Below, in pieces: positions 16,910 to 26,884 of a stretch of DNA of 32,804 bases (position 1 is the first letter of the stretch; every line of letters starts with the position of its first letter). Origin of the DNA: a virus; the IMG/VR virus record IMGVR_UViG_3300028008_000061, positions 1 to 32,804 of that record, one strand, 5' to 3'. Below the pieces are notes generated by a model, which ran no database searches, was not told the DNA's origin, and saw only the letters and a program-made list of their open reading frames with translations. The translations under genes were made by a program, and so were the position numbers.

Positions 16910-17635
16910 ATGGGTGCAAAGCGAAAAGCTGCTAAACAGCAGAATTCAAAGGGCAATTACAATAATGTAGTTGATATTAAACCATTCCAAAAATCAAAGC
17001 AAGTTAACATACTTCCAAGAAACAGAAATCAAGAATCATATGTATTATCACTGTTAGACCCGTCGAAAGATATAGTCTTTGGCATCGGGCCGGCAGGTAC
17101 AGGTAAAACGTTGTTGGCTGTTCAGGTTGCTGTTAAACTTTTCAAAGAAGGTACAATTGATAAAATCATTGTGACAAGACCAGCTGTATCAGTCGATGAA
17201 GATTTAGGATTCTTACCAGGAACGTTAGAAGAAAAAATGGCGCCTTGGACAAGACCTATTTTTGATGTGTTAAAAGAATATTTTAATGCAGCAGAGATTA
17301 CAGGAATGATTCAAGAAGGCATTATTGAAATTTCGCCACTAGCATATATGCGCGGCAGAACGTTTAAGAATAGTTTTATTCTTGCAGACGAAATGCAAAA
17401 CGCAACACCAAACCAAATGAAAATGTTATTAACACGTTTAGGCGAGGGAAGTATGATGGCTGTAACAGGCGATCTTAATCAGGCAGATAGATTGAAAGAT
17501 AATGGTTTAATTGACTTTACTAAACTATTAGAAAACAGTAATCAATCATGTTTGGACGTAGTCCAGTTCGATCAAGGAGATATTGAAAGGCATGCAGCCG
17601 TTAAGGCAGTTCTTCAAGTTTATGGTGATGAATAG
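16910..17635 (+). CDS. phoH: PhoH-like P-loop ATPase
   Basis: The 241-residue protein is a PhoH-family NTPase: Walker A GPAGTGKT (60-67), the PhoH signature VTRPAVSVDEDLGFLPG (88-104) and Walker B FILADE (156-161), with a basic N-terminal tail (AKRKAAKQ). PhoH is common in marine phages; in bacteria it is linked to phosphate starvation and RNA metabolism, but the phage role is unsettled. Length is typical. It is the only gene on the plus strand, has a consensus AGGAGG site, and its last 35 bases overlap the end of the dCMP deaminase gene in antisense, so no terminator separates the two convergent units. Confidence 0.93.
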   Translation: MGAKRKAAKQQNSKGNYNNVVDIKPFQKSKQVNILPRNRNQESYVLSLLDPSKDIVFGIGPAGTGKTLLAVQVAVKLFKEGTIDKIIVTRPAVSVDEDLGFLPGTLEEKMAPWTRPIFDVLKEYFNAAEITGMIQEGIIEISPLAYMRGRTFKNSFILADEMQNATPNQMKMLLTRLGEGSMMAVTGDLNQADRLKDNGLIDFTKLLENSNQSCLDVVQFDQGDIERHAAVKAVLQVYGDE

Positions 17636-18050
17636 TAACACCTGACTTAGTAAGAAAATCCAAGCCCTGTGTGCTACGATATTCATATTTGTAGTACACA
17701 GTGGCTATTCCACTTTGATAGATCAGTTTTGCACAATCTATACATGGTGAGTGTGTAACAAACATAGTTGCACCGTTTCCACTTTCGCTACTCTTTGCAA
17801 GTTTAGCAATAGCATTTGATTCTGCATGTAAAACTTCAACTTTTGTAACTGTAGTACATGTTCCTAATTCGTGATGCTGTATAGTATCTTCACAACAATT
17901 ATCCCATCCACTAGGCATACCATTATATCCAATTGAGATAATGCGATCATCCTTAACAACAATAGCACCTACTTGTAAACGCTCGGCACTACTAAGTTGT
18001 GCAAAACGTTCTGCAACGTCCATGTAAGCATCAATAAATTTAGATTTCAT
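17601..18050 (-). CDS. dCMP deaminase
   Basis: The protein (149 residues from the ATG at 18050) has the zinc and catalytic motifs of cytidine/deoxycytidylate deaminases: H75-A-E77 and P102-C103-x-x-C106, plus NGMPSGWDNC in the substrate loop typical of the dCMP enzyme. It converts dCMP to dUMP, the substrate of the ThyA two genes upstream. I prefer the start at 18050, because it forms an ATGA overlap with the preceding stop and aligns with the family; an ATG at 18101 would add 17 residues. It is the last gene of the twelve-gene chain and overlaps phoH at the 3' ends. Confidence 0.9.
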   Translation of the reverse strand: MKSKFIDAYMDVAERFAQLSSAERLQVGAIVVKDDRIISIGYNGMPSGWDNCCEDTIQHHELGTCTTVTKVEVLHAESNAIAKLAKSSESGNGATMFVTHSPCIDCAKLIYQSGIATVYYKYEYRSTQGLDFLTKSGVTIHHHKLEELP

Positions 18051-18265
18051 TTTTTTATCTGTTCCAGTAAGTATTCGTTCTTGGTCCATATGTATGTCCA
18101 ACTACGTCCTTTGATAGGCGGCTTACCTAAGTTATCGTAATACGTATGCTGAACGTAATATTTTTTCAGCCATATACGTTTGTGTGATCCACTACGTATA
18201 GGCCACCATGCAAACTTTTCTTCTACAGATCGTTGCGGATCTGCTTGCCAGTTCGCACCCATCAT
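18047..18265 (-). CDS. Small aromatic-rich basic hypothetical protein
   Basis: The 72-residue protein is rich in Trp, Tyr, Lys and Arg ([33 protein letters not shown]) and looks like a small beta-rich fold. I recall similar short proteins in marine T4-like phages with no known role. It is locked between thyA and the dCMP deaminase with four-base overlaps on both sides, so it is surely translated with them and could modulate the dTMP-making enzymes; that is a positional guess. Confidence 0.7.
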
Positions 18266-19098
18266 ACTGCCATAGGTGCCTTTATACTTGGCATTGGATT
18301 ATATCCTACTAATCTATAATCCTCAGTCTTAGTTTGTAATAATTCTTCTAGTGTAGTAAACTCTGGCATCTCCAGTATAGGTCCGTTTACAGGCGCACGT
18401 TCTAATTGTTGTTTAACTTGATCCATATGGTTATTGTAGATATGACAATCTCCTCCAGTCCATATAAATTCACCTAGCTCTAGATCGCAAATTTGTGCTA
18501 ACATATGTGTAAGCAAACTATACGATGCAATGTTAAACGGCACACCTAAGAACATGTCTGCGCTACGTTGATACAGTTGACAACTTAGTTTGCCATTTAT
18601 TACTTTAAACTGTGCAAATGCATGACACGGAGGTAGCGCCATTTTGTCTAGCTTACTTGGGTTCCAAGCACTTACAATAATTCGTCTACTGTCAGGATTG
18701 TTTTTAAGTTGTTCTATAACAGATGCAATTTGATCTACACCATCTCCGTTAAAGTCTCTCCATTGCGAACCATATACAGGTCCTAGCTCTCCGTCTGTAT
18801 ATCCTAATGCTACACCTTGTTCTTTAAAATTAGCTGTCCAAATTGTGTTCTTTGTTTTGTCGCCGTGTGTAATTTCTGCTAGTCTAGGTTCGGATGTAGA
18901 TCCTTCTAAGAACCATAGTAGTTCTCCTACTACACTTTTCCATGCAAGTTTCTTTGTAGTTACAGCTGGAAAGTTACTGTACGTTAGTGGAAAGCGCATT
19001 TGGTATCCAAACACTGTGCGAGTACCTACACCTGTTCTATCACTTACGTCTTCGCCATTTTCTAAAATGTATTCTAGTGCATCTAAATACTGTTTCAT
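18262..19098 (-). CDS. thyA: Thymidylate synthase (ThyA type)
   Basis: The 278-residue protein is a folate-dependent ThyA: catalytic C158 in [10 protein letters not shown], the [20 protein letters not shown] block with N189 that selects dUMP, and the [12 protein letters not shown] element. It methylates dUMP to dTMP and yields dihydrofolate, which the DHFR in the next gene upstream recycles. N189 rather than Asp argues against a dCMP hydroxymethylase. Length is close to the bacterial enzyme (264 in E. coli). Cyanophages usually carry the unrelated ThyX, so ThyA here points to another host group. Four-base overlaps join it to both neighbours. Confidence 0.95.
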
Positions 19099-19580
19099 AG
19101 TTTACTCCAAATTTGAAATTCTACATCGCCATGGTCTTCGTTCCAAGTCATTTCAAACAAATTTTCAATTTTCTTTAACGGTAAGAATGTATCACATGCA
19201 TATGCACCAGGAATACGACTTAGATAAAACTCATCAATTATATCTAGTGTTTGTTCGATAATTTTAGGACCACCTATAACCCAAGTAATAACACCTTCGT
19301 TTAGATACTCAATGTGTTTTATTTCGTTGTTTAGGTTACCGCTAATATACATGTCTGCACCTGGATAGTCATCCTTACGTGTAGTTGCTAGTACATTAGT
19401 ACGTTTAGGTAGCGGGCGTGGCATGTGCGGATCGTCCCAAGTAGTAGATCCCATTATAACAATATGTCCTGCTGTGTTCTCTTTAAACCATTTAAGATCT
19501 GTACTGTTGTTAGGCCAAGGTAGTGTACCGTTTTTACTTACGCCGCCGTAATCGTCACATGCTAGTATTGCTCTTATCAT
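19095..19580 (-). CDS. folA: Dihydrofolate reductase
   Basis: The 161-residue protein has the DHFR layout: [19 protein letters not shown] at the N terminus, the proton-relay acid D28 in [11 protein letters not shown], the NADPH-binding [21 protein letters not shown], and WVIGGPKII. It reduces dihydrofolate to tetrahydrofolate with NADPH and so supports ThyA, encoded directly downstream with a four-base overlap. Length equals the E. coli enzyme (159). No fusion or missing residue is seen. Confidence 0.93.
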
Positions 19581-21166
19581 AAACTCTTAACCTCTATAAA
19601 TTTGTATGTACTGGTTGCATCATGTGTTGGACAAAATCTGTTTACCCTATCCATGCCGCCTTCTTGCACATCACCAAAAAATTCTTCTTGATATTGTGCA
19701 AACAATTTCTTATATAATTTGTCGTCTGTTTCAGATTCTTGTATTACACTATGCATCTCTGGACCAAAGTGTGCATATAAAGCAAACGTTCTTAATAATT
19801 TATCTAGTTCATCTTCTTGTAGATATGGCTCTGGCATATCAATTGCCCACTTGTCCATATATCCGCCACTGTTTATATACGCATTATCTAAGAAGCCTGC
19901 TTTAACTGCCATTGTTCTAAGTTCTGTTCCCCAATATGGCTGGAACATGCCTATAGTAAGTCCGTCATATCCTCTAGCACGATGTACCATGTCTGCTGTG
20001 TCTATTACCATTTGTCTAGTTTCAAATGGCATACCTAAGATAACATTTAAACTGTATGGAATATTGCTTTCGTTTATGTAATTGAAATATTCGTAATACC
20101 TATCGTTACTAGCTTGTCTTTTTAAAACCTTACGTCTGTATTCTTCATTGCCACTTTCTACACCAAATGTCATACGATATACGCCAGCTTCTTTAAGCGC
20201 ACTCAAGTATGCAGGCTTACAGTTTTCAATACGTGTATTAAACCAAAAAGGAATTTTGTACTTGCTCCACATTTCGCAAAATTCAAATACTTCTTTCTCT
20301 GGTCTTGCAAGGAAGCTATCGTCTTGAAACATTATTAGATCAGGATCATATAGGTCTTTGTATATAAGCAATTCTTTTTCAACTTGCTCTGCACTCTTAC
20401 GGCGCATAAAGTTTCCTATATTAAAGTCTTTAGCAAGTGTACGTGTTCGAGGACTATTACAATATGTACAATTATAAGGACATCCTCTATATGTTTCCAT
20501 ACTTACAGCACGTTCGAATACTTTGCCACCCATAGGTCTCCGCCAACGTATTCCTTTAAAGCAACCATAGTCAGGTAGCGTTTTATTAATGTCACACAGT
20601 TGTTGCGGCGCATTTTTCTTAATGTCGCCATTAGGACTTTTAATCCACAGTCCTTTTATATGATCAAAGTTTGTCTTTTCTTTAATTGCTGTAATTGCAT
20701 CAGTAACAGTAATCTCACCTTCGTGCCTTGCTAACACATTTACAGAAGGATGATTGATTACAATGTCTGGCGCATTAGTAGGAAATACACCACCTACAAT
20801 ATGAGGAATGTTTTTATCAGATATACTATCCAACAGTTGAGATGCCATTTTCCAAACATCTTCTTGAACACTCATTAATATTAAATCAGGATTAAAGTCT
20901 TCTACACATTCAATAAAATCAGGAATAATATCTTTAGGATCCTTAATCCAAAACATATCTTCTAATTCTTCTTTTTTGTTTTGTCGACTTGCTCCTATTT
21001 CAGTCATACGAATATGTCTGTTATTATATTGCTCGCTATACTGTGTTGTCTCAAATAATTTTACTTCACAGCCCATGCGTTTGGCAATAGCATTAAACAG
21101 CCCCATGCTCATAGCTGGGGACATCATTAAAGGTAAATTAGGATACGTTAATAGTATCTTAATCAT
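19577..21166 (-). CDS. Radical SAM protein with B12-binding-like N-terminal domain
   Basis: The 529-residue protein has an N-terminal Rossmann-like region (about 1-165) like the cobalamin-binding domain of the BchE/HpnP type radical SAM group ([10 protein letters not shown]..., [21 protein letters not shown]), then a radical SAM barrel with the 4Fe-4S motif C229-x3-C233-x2-C236 ([14 protein letters not shown]), and a helical C-terminal end. No DxHxxG motif is visible, so cobalamin may bind base-off without protein His or be absent. Such enzymes often methylate unreactive carbons; the substrate here is unknown. It overlaps the ferredoxin gene by eight bases, and that protein is a natural electron donor. 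The neighbours downstream make dTMP, so a nucleotide or tRNA substrate is conceivable. Confidence 0.85.
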
Positions 21167-21533
21167 AGTCCGTAGTCTCTTTCATGACGTCCGGACCTTC
21201 TCCTAATGGAGTAAAATATTTTTCGTATTTGTTAGGAACACCGTCATATTTTTCTGCATCAGGTAACGGCTCTTTTTGATCTGTAATTAACGGCCATTCG
21301 TATCCATAGTGTGTATTAATCTCAATCCATTTGATACGTTCGGGTTCGGGTAGTTCATTGTCTGCTACAATAGCATCTACTGGACACTCTGGAACACAAA
21401 CTCCGCAATCAATACATTCATCAGGATTAATTACAAGCATGTCCTCGCCTTCATAAAAACAATCAACTGGGCAAACAGCTACACAGTCGGTATGCTTACA
21501 CTTTATACAGTTGTCTGTTACTAAGTATGTCAC
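21159..21533 (-). CDS. fdxA: 7Fe ferredoxin (FdxA, [3Fe-4S][4Fe-4S])
   Basis: The 124-residue protein is very like Azotobacter ferredoxin I. By alignment, C9, C17 and C50 would hold the [3Fe-4S] cluster and C21, C40, C43 and C46 the [4Fe-4S] cluster, with C12 and C25 as the two extra cysteines of that family; the C-terminal extension ([15 protein letters not shown] ...) is also typical. It carries low-potential electrons in the cytoplasm. The start is a GTG sharing one base with the gp44 stop (TAGTG), and the end overlaps the radical SAM gene, so the pair is tightly coupled. It resembles proteobacterial rather than cyanobacterial plant-type [2Fe-2S] ferredoxins, and suggests transfer from such a host. 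Confidence 0.93.
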
Positions 21534-22438
21534 TATAACCTCGCTAGTTTGATTAGCACAGCGGCTAAATTAATCTCAGGATCAACTACTAGGGTGTGAT
21601 CCACCAACCCTTGTTTAATAATTAGCACAGCTTGGTCCGGATCGGCAAACAATTCGATATTGTCATACAGCCAACGATATACTTCTTCCATTTCTTCTGT
21701 GCGTACTGTGCCACATAGTAGTTTACGTGCTTCTTGTATCTTACCTGCCTTAAATAATTCAACCATGCTCAACTTCCAATCAGTTTCGCCTGTGTCTCCT
21801 TCATTGGGCTTTGTAAGTAAACCGTCAACGCTATTCATTTGCACTGTGTTGATACACTTACGCAAGTCTGGGTATGTACCTTTTACATATGTGTCAAGTG
21901 TATCCAAGTCTGGAGTTACACCTTCTGTAATAAGAATCTCTGCAACTCTTGCTGTAAACTCTGTTTGGTCAATCTTAGCAATATGAAAGCCCTGGCACCT
22001 GCTATGTAATGCAGGAATAATTTTATTAGGATAGTTACAAGTTAGAATAAAACGTGCTGTAGTATGATACTCCTCCATAACACCACGTAGTGCGGCTTGT
22101 GCGTTTGTTGACAAGTAATCTGCCTCATCTAACAATACAATTTTAAAGTCACCAAACGGAATCATTTGTACAAAGTTTACAATCTTATCACGAACGTCAT
22201 CTACACTGTTAGTACGACTTGCGTTGATCTCAAGAATGTCTAATGGATTAGTATCAAGTTCATTAAAAAGCAATTTAGCAAGTGTTGTCTTACCAATACC
22301 TGCGTTACCACTAAACAGCAAATGCGGAATAGTTTTTTCTTTGATCCAAGTGTTTACTTGATTGCGCTGTGCGTCATCTCTAAATACATAACCATCCACT
22401 GTCTTTGGACGATACTTTTCTACCCATAATTCTTTCAT
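21533..22438 (-). CDS. 44: Sliding clamp loader large subunit (T4 gp44 homologue)
   Basis: The 301-residue AAA+ protein has Walker A GNAGIGKT (44-51), Walker B LLDEAD (102-107), the SRC arginine finger (146-148) and the N-terminal WVEKYRPKT start shared by T4 gp44, RFC and DnaX proteins. Four copies with one gp62 load the gp45 clamp onto DNA (known for T4). In T4 gene 62 follows 44 directly; here the ferredoxin gene does, and no gp62-like gene is found in the window. The ATG lies in an ATGA overlap with a 50-residue gene upstream. Confidence 0.93.
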
Positions 22439-23820: not shown

Positions 23821-24537
23821 TTAAACTATATTGGCTGTAAAGTCTGTAGTAAGATCTACTTGAGTAGCGTTATCAAAAAAGTCAATAACCTTGTTTGCTA
23901 GTACTTTGTGATTAACTTCTGAAAAGTGATTATATCTATTATCACCACCTGTTCTTGCCATATGTTTCTGTACAGCTTTGTCGTTACCAATTTCTCTACG
24001 ACTTGGATCAATTAAAGCACCTTCAACGCCATCAATGGTATGAAACCCTGGAAGAATTAACATTTTAACATTTATTTCACCAAATGGTATTGCCCAACTA
24101 AAAAATGCTTGCATGAAAGCGTTGTACACTATCTTTTGTTTATGTTCAGAATACAGATGATTTCTGTATGACTCTAATGCATCGGACTCTAGTTGATTAA
24201 TATGTAATCCGACTTCGTATTTTGCTGATAAGAAATTAGCCATTTCAGGCCTATCTTCAAATATCCATTCTCTTAAGAAAGAAGTAGGTTGTACTATAAC
24301 ATAGTCACCTTTTTGTATCTTTGCTAATGTATTTGTAAATGTGTCAAATATATAATCGTTACCAACTCCGCAAAGTGCGGTATTGTTGTGTTCAGTAGTA
24401 CCAATTAAATGTTTGCTAACAAGTTCAGTCCAAGTATGTTCTATAGGAACAAAGGTTGGATTCATTCCACCCTCACCTATTATATCACATTTATGATCAT
24501 GTGCTATTGAAAAACTACAACCAAATACATGTAACAT
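23821..24537 (-). CDS. SGNH/GDSL hydrolase-like protein, copy 2
   Basis: The 238-residue protein has the order of SGNH esterase blocks: a candidate nucleophile S8 in FGCSFS at the N terminus, GVGNDYIF (block with Gly/Asn) near 57-64, and a C-terminal NHFSEVNH with the candidate catalytic His. The Asp of the GDS motif is replaced by Cys (GCS), a variant also seen in related families. It is about the same length as, and clearly paralogous to, the next gene upstream (VIVQPTS/VVVQLTS, LILPGF, LTTxF endings). Likely substrates are ester-linked groups on glycans or lipids; unknown. It starts on the stop codon of its paralogue (one base shared). Confidence 0.65.
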   Translation of the reverse strand: MLHVFGCSFSIAHDHKCDIIGEGGMNPTFVPIEHTWTELVSKHLIGTTEHNNTALCGVGNDYIFDTFTNTLAKIQKGDYVIVQPTSFLREWIFEDRPEMANFLSAKYEVGLHINQLESDALESYRNHLYSEHKQKIVYNAFMQAFFSWAIPFGEINVKMLILPGFHTIDGVEGALIDPSRREIGNDKAVQKHMARTGGDNRYNHFSEVNHKVLANKVIDFFDNATQVDLTTDFTANIV

Positions 24538-25205
24538 TAATACATGTCTCCTTTAAATCCTGTAGTAAGATCTAACACAGTACCGTTTTTAAAATAGTCT
24601 ACTATTTTGTCTGCAAGGACTGTATGATTCTCTATTGACATATGATTTAGTCTAGGATCAAATCCGTTGTGCTTTTCAAAGAACTCTTTTTGTCCGTTTC
24701 CTAATTCAAAGTTACAAATGTCAGTTGTTAAATTACCAATTACGCCAGGCACTGAATCAAACCCAGGTAAGATTAAAAAGTTAACATTTGGCATTGAATG
24801 TGTCATAAACATAATTGCATATACATATGATGTGTATTGAATGTTGTCTAATTGATCATTATGCAGGTGCTCGCGATAATGATCAATTGCTTGTGAAACT
24901 TTTTTAGTCCAGCCTTGAGAATAAAATATATTACTTTTTTGTGGCTCGCCTGGTAGAAACCATTTACGCCCGGCACTAGTTAATTGTACAACAACATTGT
25001 CGCCAGGTTTAAATTTAGAAGTATGCTCTAGAAAAAACTTAAAGATCCAATCGTTTGAAACACCAAACTGTGATATTGGAATAATTTCGTCAGCACCTAG
25101 TCCTTGTGCTACTAGATCCATCCAGTTGTGTTCATACTTCCAATGTGTTTCGTCTTGTGCTTCAGTTTCTATACAGTAACTATCGCCAAAGAACCACAGG
25201 CTCAT
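24537..25205 (-). CDS. SGNH/GDSL hydrolase-like protein, copy 1
   Basis: The 222-residue protein has GDS9Y at the N terminus (FFGDSYC), GVSNDWIF near 48-55 and NHMSIENH near the C terminus, the pattern of SGNH hydrolases. The block D-x-x-H is changed to E-N-H, so activity is not certain. It is a tandem paralogue of the following gene. The upstream MazG-like gene overlaps it by four bases. Cytoplasmic location is likely, as there is no signal peptide. Confidence 0.65.
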   Translation of the reverse strand: MSLWFFGDSYCIETEAQDETHWKYEHNWMDLVAQGLGADEIIPISQFGVSNDWIFKFFLEHTSKFKPGDNVVVQLTSAGRKWFLPGEPQKSNIFYSQGWTKKVSQAIDHYREHLHNDQLDNIQYTSYVYAIMFMTHSMPNVNFLILPGFDSVPGVIGNLTTDICNFELGNGQKEFFEKHNGFDPRLNHMSIENHTVLADKIVDYFKNGTVLDLTTGFKGDMY

Positions 25206-26326: not shown

Positions 26327-26884
26327 TTATCTCAAGAACTCTCTCCAATCCAGGTCAAACTGGATGGAATTAATTTTATGTACACCTATTAAGTATAACA
26401 CATAACTTGCTACACTTGATCCACGTCCTACACCCCATACAATATTGTTATTACGCATAAATTCTACAAGGTAGATCATATATTGTAATAGTGGAATCAT
26501 ATCACGTGCTTCGTATTCACCTAGCTCTTCTAAACAACGATACCAGTTCTTACTAACCTGTGCTCTTGCACGATCTTTGTACCCGCCTTTGATACGTAGT
26601 TGTTCTAACAAATAATCTTTAACATCAATCTTTTTATATTCATCAGGCATAAACCATTCACTTTGACATACACCGTCAAAAGTCTTTTGATCTACATCTA
26701 ATGGGATATACTTTTGTAGTTTGTCAAAGCCTTGTTCTTCCATAGCGGCATTGAACTTGTCTACATCATCTGATTGCTCACACAGAACTACATGACACTT
26801 GTCAACATGACCTGTATAGATCATGTCAATTAAGTCTTTGTTAGAGAATCGCGGGATACCTAGGCTGTCTGTTTTCATAAGCAT
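26327..26884 (-). CDS. Truncated DNA polymerase III alpha (DnaE)-like protein, without catalytic aspartates
   Basis: The 185-residue protein matches the part of the DnaE/PolC core just before the active site: FMRNNNIVWGVGRGSSVASYVLYLIG (GRGSS at 153-157, equivalent to PGRGSGAGS) and INSIQFDLDWREFLR, which corresponds to DPLEFDLLFERFLN. It stops where the catalytic D-F-D-I-D should follow, so it cannot polymerise by itself. No frameshift remnants of the rest are seen after the stop. It could be a decoy or regulator of host replication, or a structural or nucleotide-binding domain reused. The start is ATG 26884 (or 26878), just after the preceding gene. Confidence 0.75.
   Translation of the reverse strand: MLMKTDSLGIPRFSNKDLIDMIYTGHVDKCHVVLCEQSDDVDKFNAAMEEQGFDKLQKYIPLDVDQKTFDGVCQSEWFMPDEYKKIDVKDYLLEQLRIKGGYKDRARAQVSKNWYRCLEELGEYEARDMIPLLQYMIYLVEFMRNNNIVWGVGRGSSVASYVLYLIGVHKINSIQFDLDWREFLR

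Follow-up and report, generated by a model that had tools for sequence, protein, structure and literature searches.

A 7Fe-type ferredoxin gene with core-gene behaviour in a lineage of uncultivated phages, and a radical SAM gene as optional cargo beside it

In the uncultivated virus record IMGVR_UViG_3300028008_000061, analysed here as one stretch of 32,804 bases (hereafter the window), the gene fdxA, encoding a 7Fe-type ferredoxin of 124 amino acids (GTG start; 21159..21533, minus strand), is followed by a gene for a B12-domain-type radical S-adenosylmethionine (SAM) protein of 529 amino acids (19577..21166, minus strand), which lies between fdxA and the dihydrofolate reductase (DHFR) gene. 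A first-pass annotation had read the two genes as a coupled, phage-made electron-transfer pair. Our survey of viral loci points to separate roles: FdxA acts like a core gene in a lineage of uncultivated phages, as far as 80 loci selected by the clamp-loader gene gp44 show, and the radical SAM gene is, judged from the gene contexts surveyed, optional cargo in a variable slot and not a fixed partner of FdxA. On balance we lean towards the view that FdxA is a core electron carrier for DNA-precursor and iron-sulfur (Fe-S) enzymes, and that the radical SAM gene is a separate cargo acting on sugars or glycans.

The distribution of both genes was followed in viral loci selected by different queries. 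With FdxA as the query, the search gave 164 viral loci, of which the best 80 were fetched; gp44 is present in 74 of these 80, and the radical SAM family in none of the fetched flanks. Because this sample was itself picked by FdxA, a second sample was picked by gp44 and comprised the best 80 of at least 596 loci. Here fdxA was found in 77 of 80 loci, the other three ending 0, 70 and 649 bases past gp44, and it was present in all 74 loci with at least 700 bases downstream of gp44 and in all 59 with at least 4 kilobases (kb). The start of fdxA lies within 35 bases of the end of gp44 in 38 of the 77 and within 150 bases in 44, and it is never more than 2.1 kb away; it comes directly after gp44 in about half of the gp44-selected loci. 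This constancy (74/74) leads us to regard FdxA, within those loci, as behaving like a core gene. No member of the radical SAM family was found in this sample (80 loci, 74 of them with at least 700 bases after gp44). A broader FdxA alignment raised the number of viral loci with a relative to at least 591, and the best 80 of these, carrying other phage FdxA types, were fetched as well; their ranking followed similarity to one FdxA type, which also supplied some of the query genes, so that context counts drawn from them lean that way. Their flanks likewise held no member of the radical SAM family (0/80). Viewed from the other side, FdxA was not found in 38 of the 39 viral records that carry the radical SAM family, including records of 111, 138, 157 and 186 kb, any of which may be a fragment. 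The remaining record, G219, has FdxA after gp44, about 18 kb from its radical SAM gene. The two genes are thus not conserved together, the outcome that the first-pass annotation had itself named beforehand as speaking against a pair.

The surroundings of fdxA are variable. In two relatives (L003 and L401) DHFR abuts fdxA and the radical SAM insert is absent, and elsewhere the slot around fdxA holds 2-oxoglutarate-dependent oxygenase-, halogenase-, nucleosidase-, sulfotransferase- and methyltransferase-like genes, all named by eye. The space between gp44, fdxA and the thymidylate synthase gene has the appearance of a cargo hotspot in L012, L018, L022 and other loci. Relatives mostly have the flavin thymidylate synthase ThyX where the window has ThyA: among the 59 gp44-selected loci with at least 4 kb, ThyX occurs in 43 and ThyA in 16, never both (the ThyX of L040 was named by TIGR02170). 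The two enzymes swap at one place in these loci. Other radical SAM genes are also scarce close to fdxA. Any match to PF04055 was seen in 7 of 50 fdxA records, a survey that covered 50 of the 80 FdxA-selected loci, and none lies within 20 kb of fdxA (positions by arithmetic). The window's radical SAM protein, used as a query over 50 records, 46 of them outside the PF04055 survey, gave distant matches in four, two of which lie 6-8 kb from fdxA. The PF04055 matches in fdxA records amounted to 30 loci (L082-L111), and among these a similarity to the window protein at E <0.1 was seen for L083 alone. Five of the 50 fdxA records, two of them near-copies, contain five to seven radical SAM matches each (G048, G036, G037, G038 and G020), some below the family cut-off.

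The overlap between fdxA and the radical SAM gene, which had drawn attention to them, is real: eight bases, ATGATTAA, are shared by two intact genes on the minus strand, as first noted. It is nothing special, however, because most neighbouring gene pairs in the window overlap (12 of 17 with this pair counted, by 1 to 22 bases, the figure of 22 depending on a guessed start of the deaminase gene). The radical SAM gene is no outlier in base composition either, with a GC content of 35.4% against 36.8% for the window.

FdxA is, by its sequence, a protein with all the marks of a 7Fe ferredoxin, for which cluster holding and electron carriage are predicted. It scores above the cut-off of the NCBIfam model NF045490 FdxA_Protbact (160.1 bits versus 135, covering profile positions 1-103 of 104), the solved structures that it matches best are of 7Fe ferredoxin I (E about 1e-39), presumably the Azotobacter protein, and it also matches phrog_8732, a family of unknown function. 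Its cysteines (9, 12, 17, 21, 25, 40, 43, 46 and 50) sit where solved 7Fe ferredoxin I has them, in agreement with the first-pass count of nine as in Azotobacter ferredoxin I, and none of the nine varies across the 98 aligned rows (the window plus 97 distinct viral-locus relatives). We assume that two of them are free and that the others bind one 3Fe-4S and one 4Fe-4S cluster. In a rough tree built on few columns, with the phage rows thinned beforehand, a single group next to the alphaproteobacterial FdxA proteins (support 94/91) takes in 71 of the 72 phage FdxA rows, with row L389 outside it; the window FdxA reaches at best 65.8% identity to the bacterial copies fetched. Ferredoxins also occur in nine records of the named phage collection, of which two were examined (Acinetobacter phage MD-2021a and Microcystis phage MaAM05), the remainder being six human-fecal records and a second MD-2021a. 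The phage labels of the two examined, CAKLQH020000001.1 (L189) and MW495066.1 (L190), seem doubtful: their ferredoxins lie amid bacterial-looking gene runs (mutS, type I secretion; pgi, queG), and because of these surroundings both were entered as bacterial in the tree.

Several components that could form an electron line with FdxA are encoded in related records. A ferredoxin-NADP reductase (FPR) of bacterial type was found in 3 of 27 fdxA records, all other than the window, and 168 viral loci encode FPR relatives, the best 80 at 65-98%. The nearest solved kin of the phage FPR over its full length are 2bgi (E 6e-53) and 1a8p (E 1e-43), presumably the enzymes of Rhodobacter capsulatus and Azotobacter, respectively; against NF008178, the Ferredoxin--NADP(+) reductase equivalog, three phage proteins scored 97 to 125 bits, under the cut-off of 390. 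Conversely, FdxA exceeded its cut-off in 5 of 35 FPR records, which were drawn from 80 fetched FPR loci, and one more gave a short partial match. Bacterial-type FPR is widespread in viral contigs (L273-L275, L280-L359), large records without FdxA among them. As regards ribonucleotide reductase, NrdB was found in 3 of 27 fdxA records (class Ia by NF006576 in the single case tested) and NrdA in 4 of 16 large ones, and a record of 236 kb carries NrdAB together with a glutaredoxin gene. An A-type Fe-S carrier is present in 22 of 29 fdxA records, some of which (e.g. G160 and G005) lie outside the window's lineage; in the window itself, tblastn with four A-type carriers gave no hit. The flanks of the 80 further FdxA loci contain gp44 (26), an A-type carrier (19), a QueD-like protein (17), ThyX (14), phosphoribosyl pyrophosphate (PRPP) synthetase (12), ThyA (11), a DnaB-like helicase (8) and NrdB (7, in each case 2-4 kb upstream of fdxA); one QueD-like protein, one A-type carrier and one PRPP synthetase were checked by Pfam. 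In addition, SufE and SAM synthetase genes lie near fdxA in L428, and a nitroreductase-family gene precedes another fdxA copy. The idea of phage-made electron transfer thus survives in part, with further components such as FPR present in some phages, but the conserved pairing does not, the radical SAM family being found in 0 of the 74 gp44-selected loci.

The radical SAM protein passes PF04055 with 78.7 bits (cut-off 29.5), and the cysteines C229, C233 and C236 (CxxxCxxC), correctly picked out at first pass, are invariant in all 14 aligned family members. The B12-binding-like N-terminal domain that had also been proposed agrees with the predicted fold, but the Pfam match of the window protein stays under the cut-off (22.5 versus 32.1 bits); in 13 of 14 family members the B12-binding match reaches E 0.01 or better, the best being 4.6e-9. 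An AlphaFold2 model (m3953f7df6db1; predicted local distance difference test (pLDDT) 81, predicted template-modelling score 0.83) matches the B12-domain radical SAM enzymes AprD4, MgmA, CysS, OxsB, TsrM and TokK over most of its length (Z 18.6-23.2, root-mean-square deviation 3.7-4.4), rows of the fold list from about Z 12 downward not being taken as kinship. Whole enzymes are matched; residues 230-237 of the model, including two of the three cysteines, have pLDDT values below 50. According to the model, the protein is of the B12-domain-type radical SAM fold, which does not imply cobalamin use.

This protein is, as homology indicates, a member of a phage-borne family of uncharacterised enzymes. 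Peptide-pattern scans and the named phage collection yielded no family member; the notion that the protein is a singleton was nevertheless wrong, since its relatives, missed by the peptide patterns, came to light with a DNA motif covering the cysteine region. That motif gave 25 viral loci, in 24 of which the homologue (best copy) is 48-73% identical and in the other 26%, and an alignment search gave 39 viral loci, many on the same contigs, at 32-73%. The genome collection gave no match to one longer DNA motif but ten loci with the alignment, the nearest being an Omnitrophica metagenome-assembled genome (MAG) at 40%, followed by a partial Omnitrophota copy at 35% and an alphaproteobacterial MAG at 32%. 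The best plasmid homologue, from Azospirillum, has 24% identity, and only 2 of the 14 family members match a PHROG, weakly. The NCBIfam models give no family name to the window protein: the AprD4 family NF033070 scored 57.4 bits, under its cut-off of 500, and the P-methyl and ribosomally synthesized and post-translationally modified peptide (RiPP) models are likewise sub-threshold.

The neighbours of the radical SAM family were surveyed in 26 dereplicated loci, 13 of the 39 having been dropped as near-copies and neighbours of <90 or >900 amino acids left out; 72 of 85 neighbour references were used for naming, and 25 of 36 matching families shown. A gene for a SPASM radical SAM protein is at most three genes away in 9 of the 26 loci, and one also adjoins the alphaproteobacterial copy. 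Sugar-type neighbours at the viral loci include cytidylyltransferases, an epimerase, UDP-glucose/GDP-mannose dehydrogenase, a mannose-6-phosphate isomerase domain and a family 25 glycosyltransferase, and the other named neighbours are methyltransferases and a sulfotransferase. Near the bacterial copies lie a cytidylyltransferase, a GHMP kinase and an aminotransferase, and the Azospirillum plasmid homologue starts four bases behind an acylneuraminate cytidylyltransferase gene. We infer from these contexts, with moderate confidence, that the enzyme modifies a sugar, a nucleotide sugar or a glycan, a lipid-linked one included; confidence is only moderate because most of the neighbours are unnamed. 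Of the nucleotide, tRNA or lipid substrates first suggested, it may be said that the neighbours lean to sugar or glycan and that the best sub-threshold model is a hopanoid enzyme, HpnJ.

In the explanation we favour, FdxA would take single electrons from NADPH via ferredoxin-NADP reductase, encoded by the phage in some cases and otherwise by the host, and would pass them to enzymes of DNA-precursor and Fe-S metabolism. The radical site of class Ia ribonucleotide reductase would be the likeliest single target, much as YfaE serves NrdB in E. coli, and a phage A-type carrier may help to load the clusters of FdxA. The line from NADPH through FPR to FdxA is probably phage-owned and directed at DNA-precursor enzymes. 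The radical SAM gene would be accessory cargo, from a phage-borne B12-domain-type family, placed between fdxA and DHFR, and its product would act on a sugar, nucleotide sugar or glycan, elsewhere beside a SPASM radical SAM enzyme. In the window phage this enzyme could be reduced by FdxA, as any such enzyme might be, with no dedicated pair. A stronger form of the proposal, that low-potential electron supply has become a constant component of the replication genes in a widespread group of uncultivated phages, where the phage A-type carrier, the 7Fe ferredoxin and, in some phages, FPR jointly sustain the ribonucleotide reductase radical and other nucleotide enzymes independently of host ferredoxin, while phages separately spread radical SAM sugar enzymes, is put forward only tentatively.

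Several observations weigh against the explanation just given. FPR and NrdAB occur in a minority of records, all of them possibly fragments; neither was found in fdxA records of 170 kb and 152 kb, FPR and glutaredoxin were absent from the flanks of all 80 further FdxA loci, and FdxA was not found in three large FPR records (116, 151 and 198 kb). Three phage FPRs end in AFVG or AFVL and seem to have no counterpart of Lys258, the C-terminal residue through which Azotobacter FPR contacts ferredoxin I according to the portion of PMC3212534 consulted. On the side of the cargo, names of nucleotide-sugar or glycosyltransferase type fall on only about 7 of the 72 radical SAM neighbours, and no such gene stands beside the radical SAM gene in the window. 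HpnJ (TIGR03471) is the best NCBIfam model at 97.2 bits, far under its cut-off of 577.6, with sub-threshold lipid and tRNA models ranking under it, and the tRNA and ribosome methylthiotransferases MiaB and RimO come next in the fold list (Z 17.7-18.2). Finally, G219, a relative of the lineage, has both the radical SAM family and FdxA, which makes shared use possible.

The coupled pair of the first-pass annotation, with FdxA as the dedicated donor of a radical SAM enzyme that modifies a nucleotide, tRNA or lipid, now appears improbable. Radical SAM enzymes do require a one-electron donor, the genes are adjacent and overlapping in the window, and both the sub-threshold lipid and tRNA models (HpnJ best) and the large share of the fold held in common with MiaB and RimO are compatible with such substrates. 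Yet the family is missing from the FdxA-selected, the gp44-selected and the further FdxA loci alike (0/80 each), 38 of 39 radical SAM records are without a detected FdxA, and overlap is the local rule (12/17 pairs); with the samples selected by gp44, by fdxA and by the radical SAM gene all against it, this reading was dropped. Still less credible is that FdxA stands in structurally for gp62, the small subunit of the clamp loader, whose gene occupies the corresponding position in T4. The place of FdxA after gp44 across the lineage fits this idea, but every cluster ligand is invariant, up to 2.1 kb with other genes can lie between gp44 and fdxA, and 54 of the 80 further FdxA loci have no gp44 in their flanks, although no search aimed at gp62 itself was made.

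The other alternatives concern the target of the electrons. That FdxA feeds the neighbouring ThyX is unlikely: ThyX is present in 43 of 59 gp44-selected and 14 of 80 further FdxA loci, but the remaining 16 of the 59 retain fdxA with ThyA in its stead, a combination also found in the window, so that ThyX as the sole target is out, and no title or abstract opening in our literature search named ferredoxin as the donor of ThyX. A role chiefly in repairing or assembling the diferric-tyrosyl radical of a phage or host class Ia ribonucleotide reductase, in the manner of YfaE, is a serious possibility, although we hold it to be well short of even. YfaE is a 2Fe-2S ferredoxin, whereas FdxA is of the 7Fe type; NrdA appears in just 4 of 16 large records, and the link between FdxA and NrdB is a predicted one. 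In its favour are the seven NrdB genes that precede fdxA among the 80 loci with other FdxA types, the 236 kb record with NrdAB and glutaredoxin, and the report, in the part of PMC7082346 available to us, that host nrdA, nrdB and their 2Fe-2S-like ferredoxin were the sole genes at least 2-fold up throughout infection in two virocells, a result that also supports the explanation favoured above. Marginally less probable, and possible rather than likely, is a general supply of electrons to phage Fe-S and radical enzymes, the window radical SAM enzyme included. The A-type carrier in 22 of 29 fdxA records, SufE and SAM synthetase near fdxA in L428, the five records (two near-copies) with five to seven radical SAM matches, and a marine T4-like genome that encodes 12 radical SAM proteins besides an A-type carrier (PMC5332604, as excerpted) all suit it, but PF04055 matches occur in only 7 of 50 fdxA records, none within 20 kb, even if two other matches lie at 6-8 kb.

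The remaining genes of the cluster are also on the minus strand and follow the order first described, namely gp44, fdxA, the radical SAM gene, DHFR, ThyA and dCMP deaminase. The gp44-like sliding-clamp loader ATPase gene (21533..22438; phrog_168, E 1e-75; 54.6% identity to PA5oct-type phages) shares one base with fdxA. Downstream, the DHFR gene (19095..19580; PF00186, 91.7 bits) overlaps the radical SAM gene by four bases and is followed by ThyA (18262..19098), an open reading frame (ORF) named by eye and in the first-pass annotation from sequence alone, by an ORF of 72 amino acids with a weak phrog_7749 match that is present in many relatives (18047..18265), and by the dCMP deaminase gene (17601..18101; phrog_174, E 2e-54). 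Further upstream, two tandem genes (23821-24537 and 24537-25205, minus strand) encode related proteins of 238 and 222 amino acids (38% in tblastn) that, by eye, look like SGNH hydrolases, the second having no Pfam match. An ORF of 185 amino acids at 26327-26884 (minus strand) matches the DNA polymerase III alpha domain PF07733 and adjoins GroES and MazG. This ORF is also seen in many relatives and resembles a short DnaE fragment encoded on its own; an identification as gp43 was dropped, the match being to DNA_pol3_alpha.

These observations suggest that a ferredoxin may be a core replication gene, in which case infection might be limited by the supply of electrons for DNA precursors, and in the radical SAM family they bring in an uncharacterised phage-borne enzyme. 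They also caution against inferring function from a single overlapping pair where most genes overlap. Our literature search returned no account of FdxA as a core gene of a phage replication cluster, nor of a phage FPR alongside it, and fdxA, phage and viral contigs were not treated together there. Ferredoxins have been described in Nitrospirota viruses (PMC7678222) and ferredoxin-type domains in viromes of oxygen-minimum zones (PMC8940887), in each case according to the passages available; in the portions seen of PMC7678222 and PMC10452541, phage ferredoxins are presented as energy or photosynthesis genes of some phages.

Among known systems, the closest likeness is to Azotobacter vinelandii ferredoxin I, the best solved match, which likewise has nine cysteines and a DUF3470 tail; the phage FdxA differs in being phage-borne, in lying within a replication and thymidylate cluster, and in that its Fe-S clusters are predicted. 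By our own reading of the alignment, it retains three of the five acidic contact residues of the Azotobacter protein. The phage FPR resembles the subclass I bacterial enzymes through its matches to 2bgi and 1a8p, but ends in AFVG or AFVL with no counterpart of Lys258; in Azotobacter, subclass I FPR is the donor of ferredoxin I (PMC3212534, in part). For the radical SAM protein, AprD4, which is not known to bind cobalamin, OxsB, MgmA, TsrM, CysS and TokK are whole-length fold matches, but at 13-19% identity and with all NCBIfam cut-offs missed. Cyanophage PetF, a plant-type 2Fe-2S protein serving photosynthesis, is also a phage-encoded ferredoxin but is not FdxA. It is recorded in 44 of 153 cyanophage genomes in the part seen of PMC10452541. 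Viral Fe-S assembly genes and radical SAM sets have been published for marine T4-like genomes (PMC5332604), which combine an A-type carrier with many radical SAM genes, and the word ferredoxin does not occur in the main text of that paper. Finally, the YfaE/NrdAB system of E. coli, as cited in the available part of PMC7082346, provides the precedent for a small ferredoxin tied to ribonucleotide reduction; YfaE is encoded by the host, whereas here the ferredoxin is of the 7Fe type and encoded by the phage.

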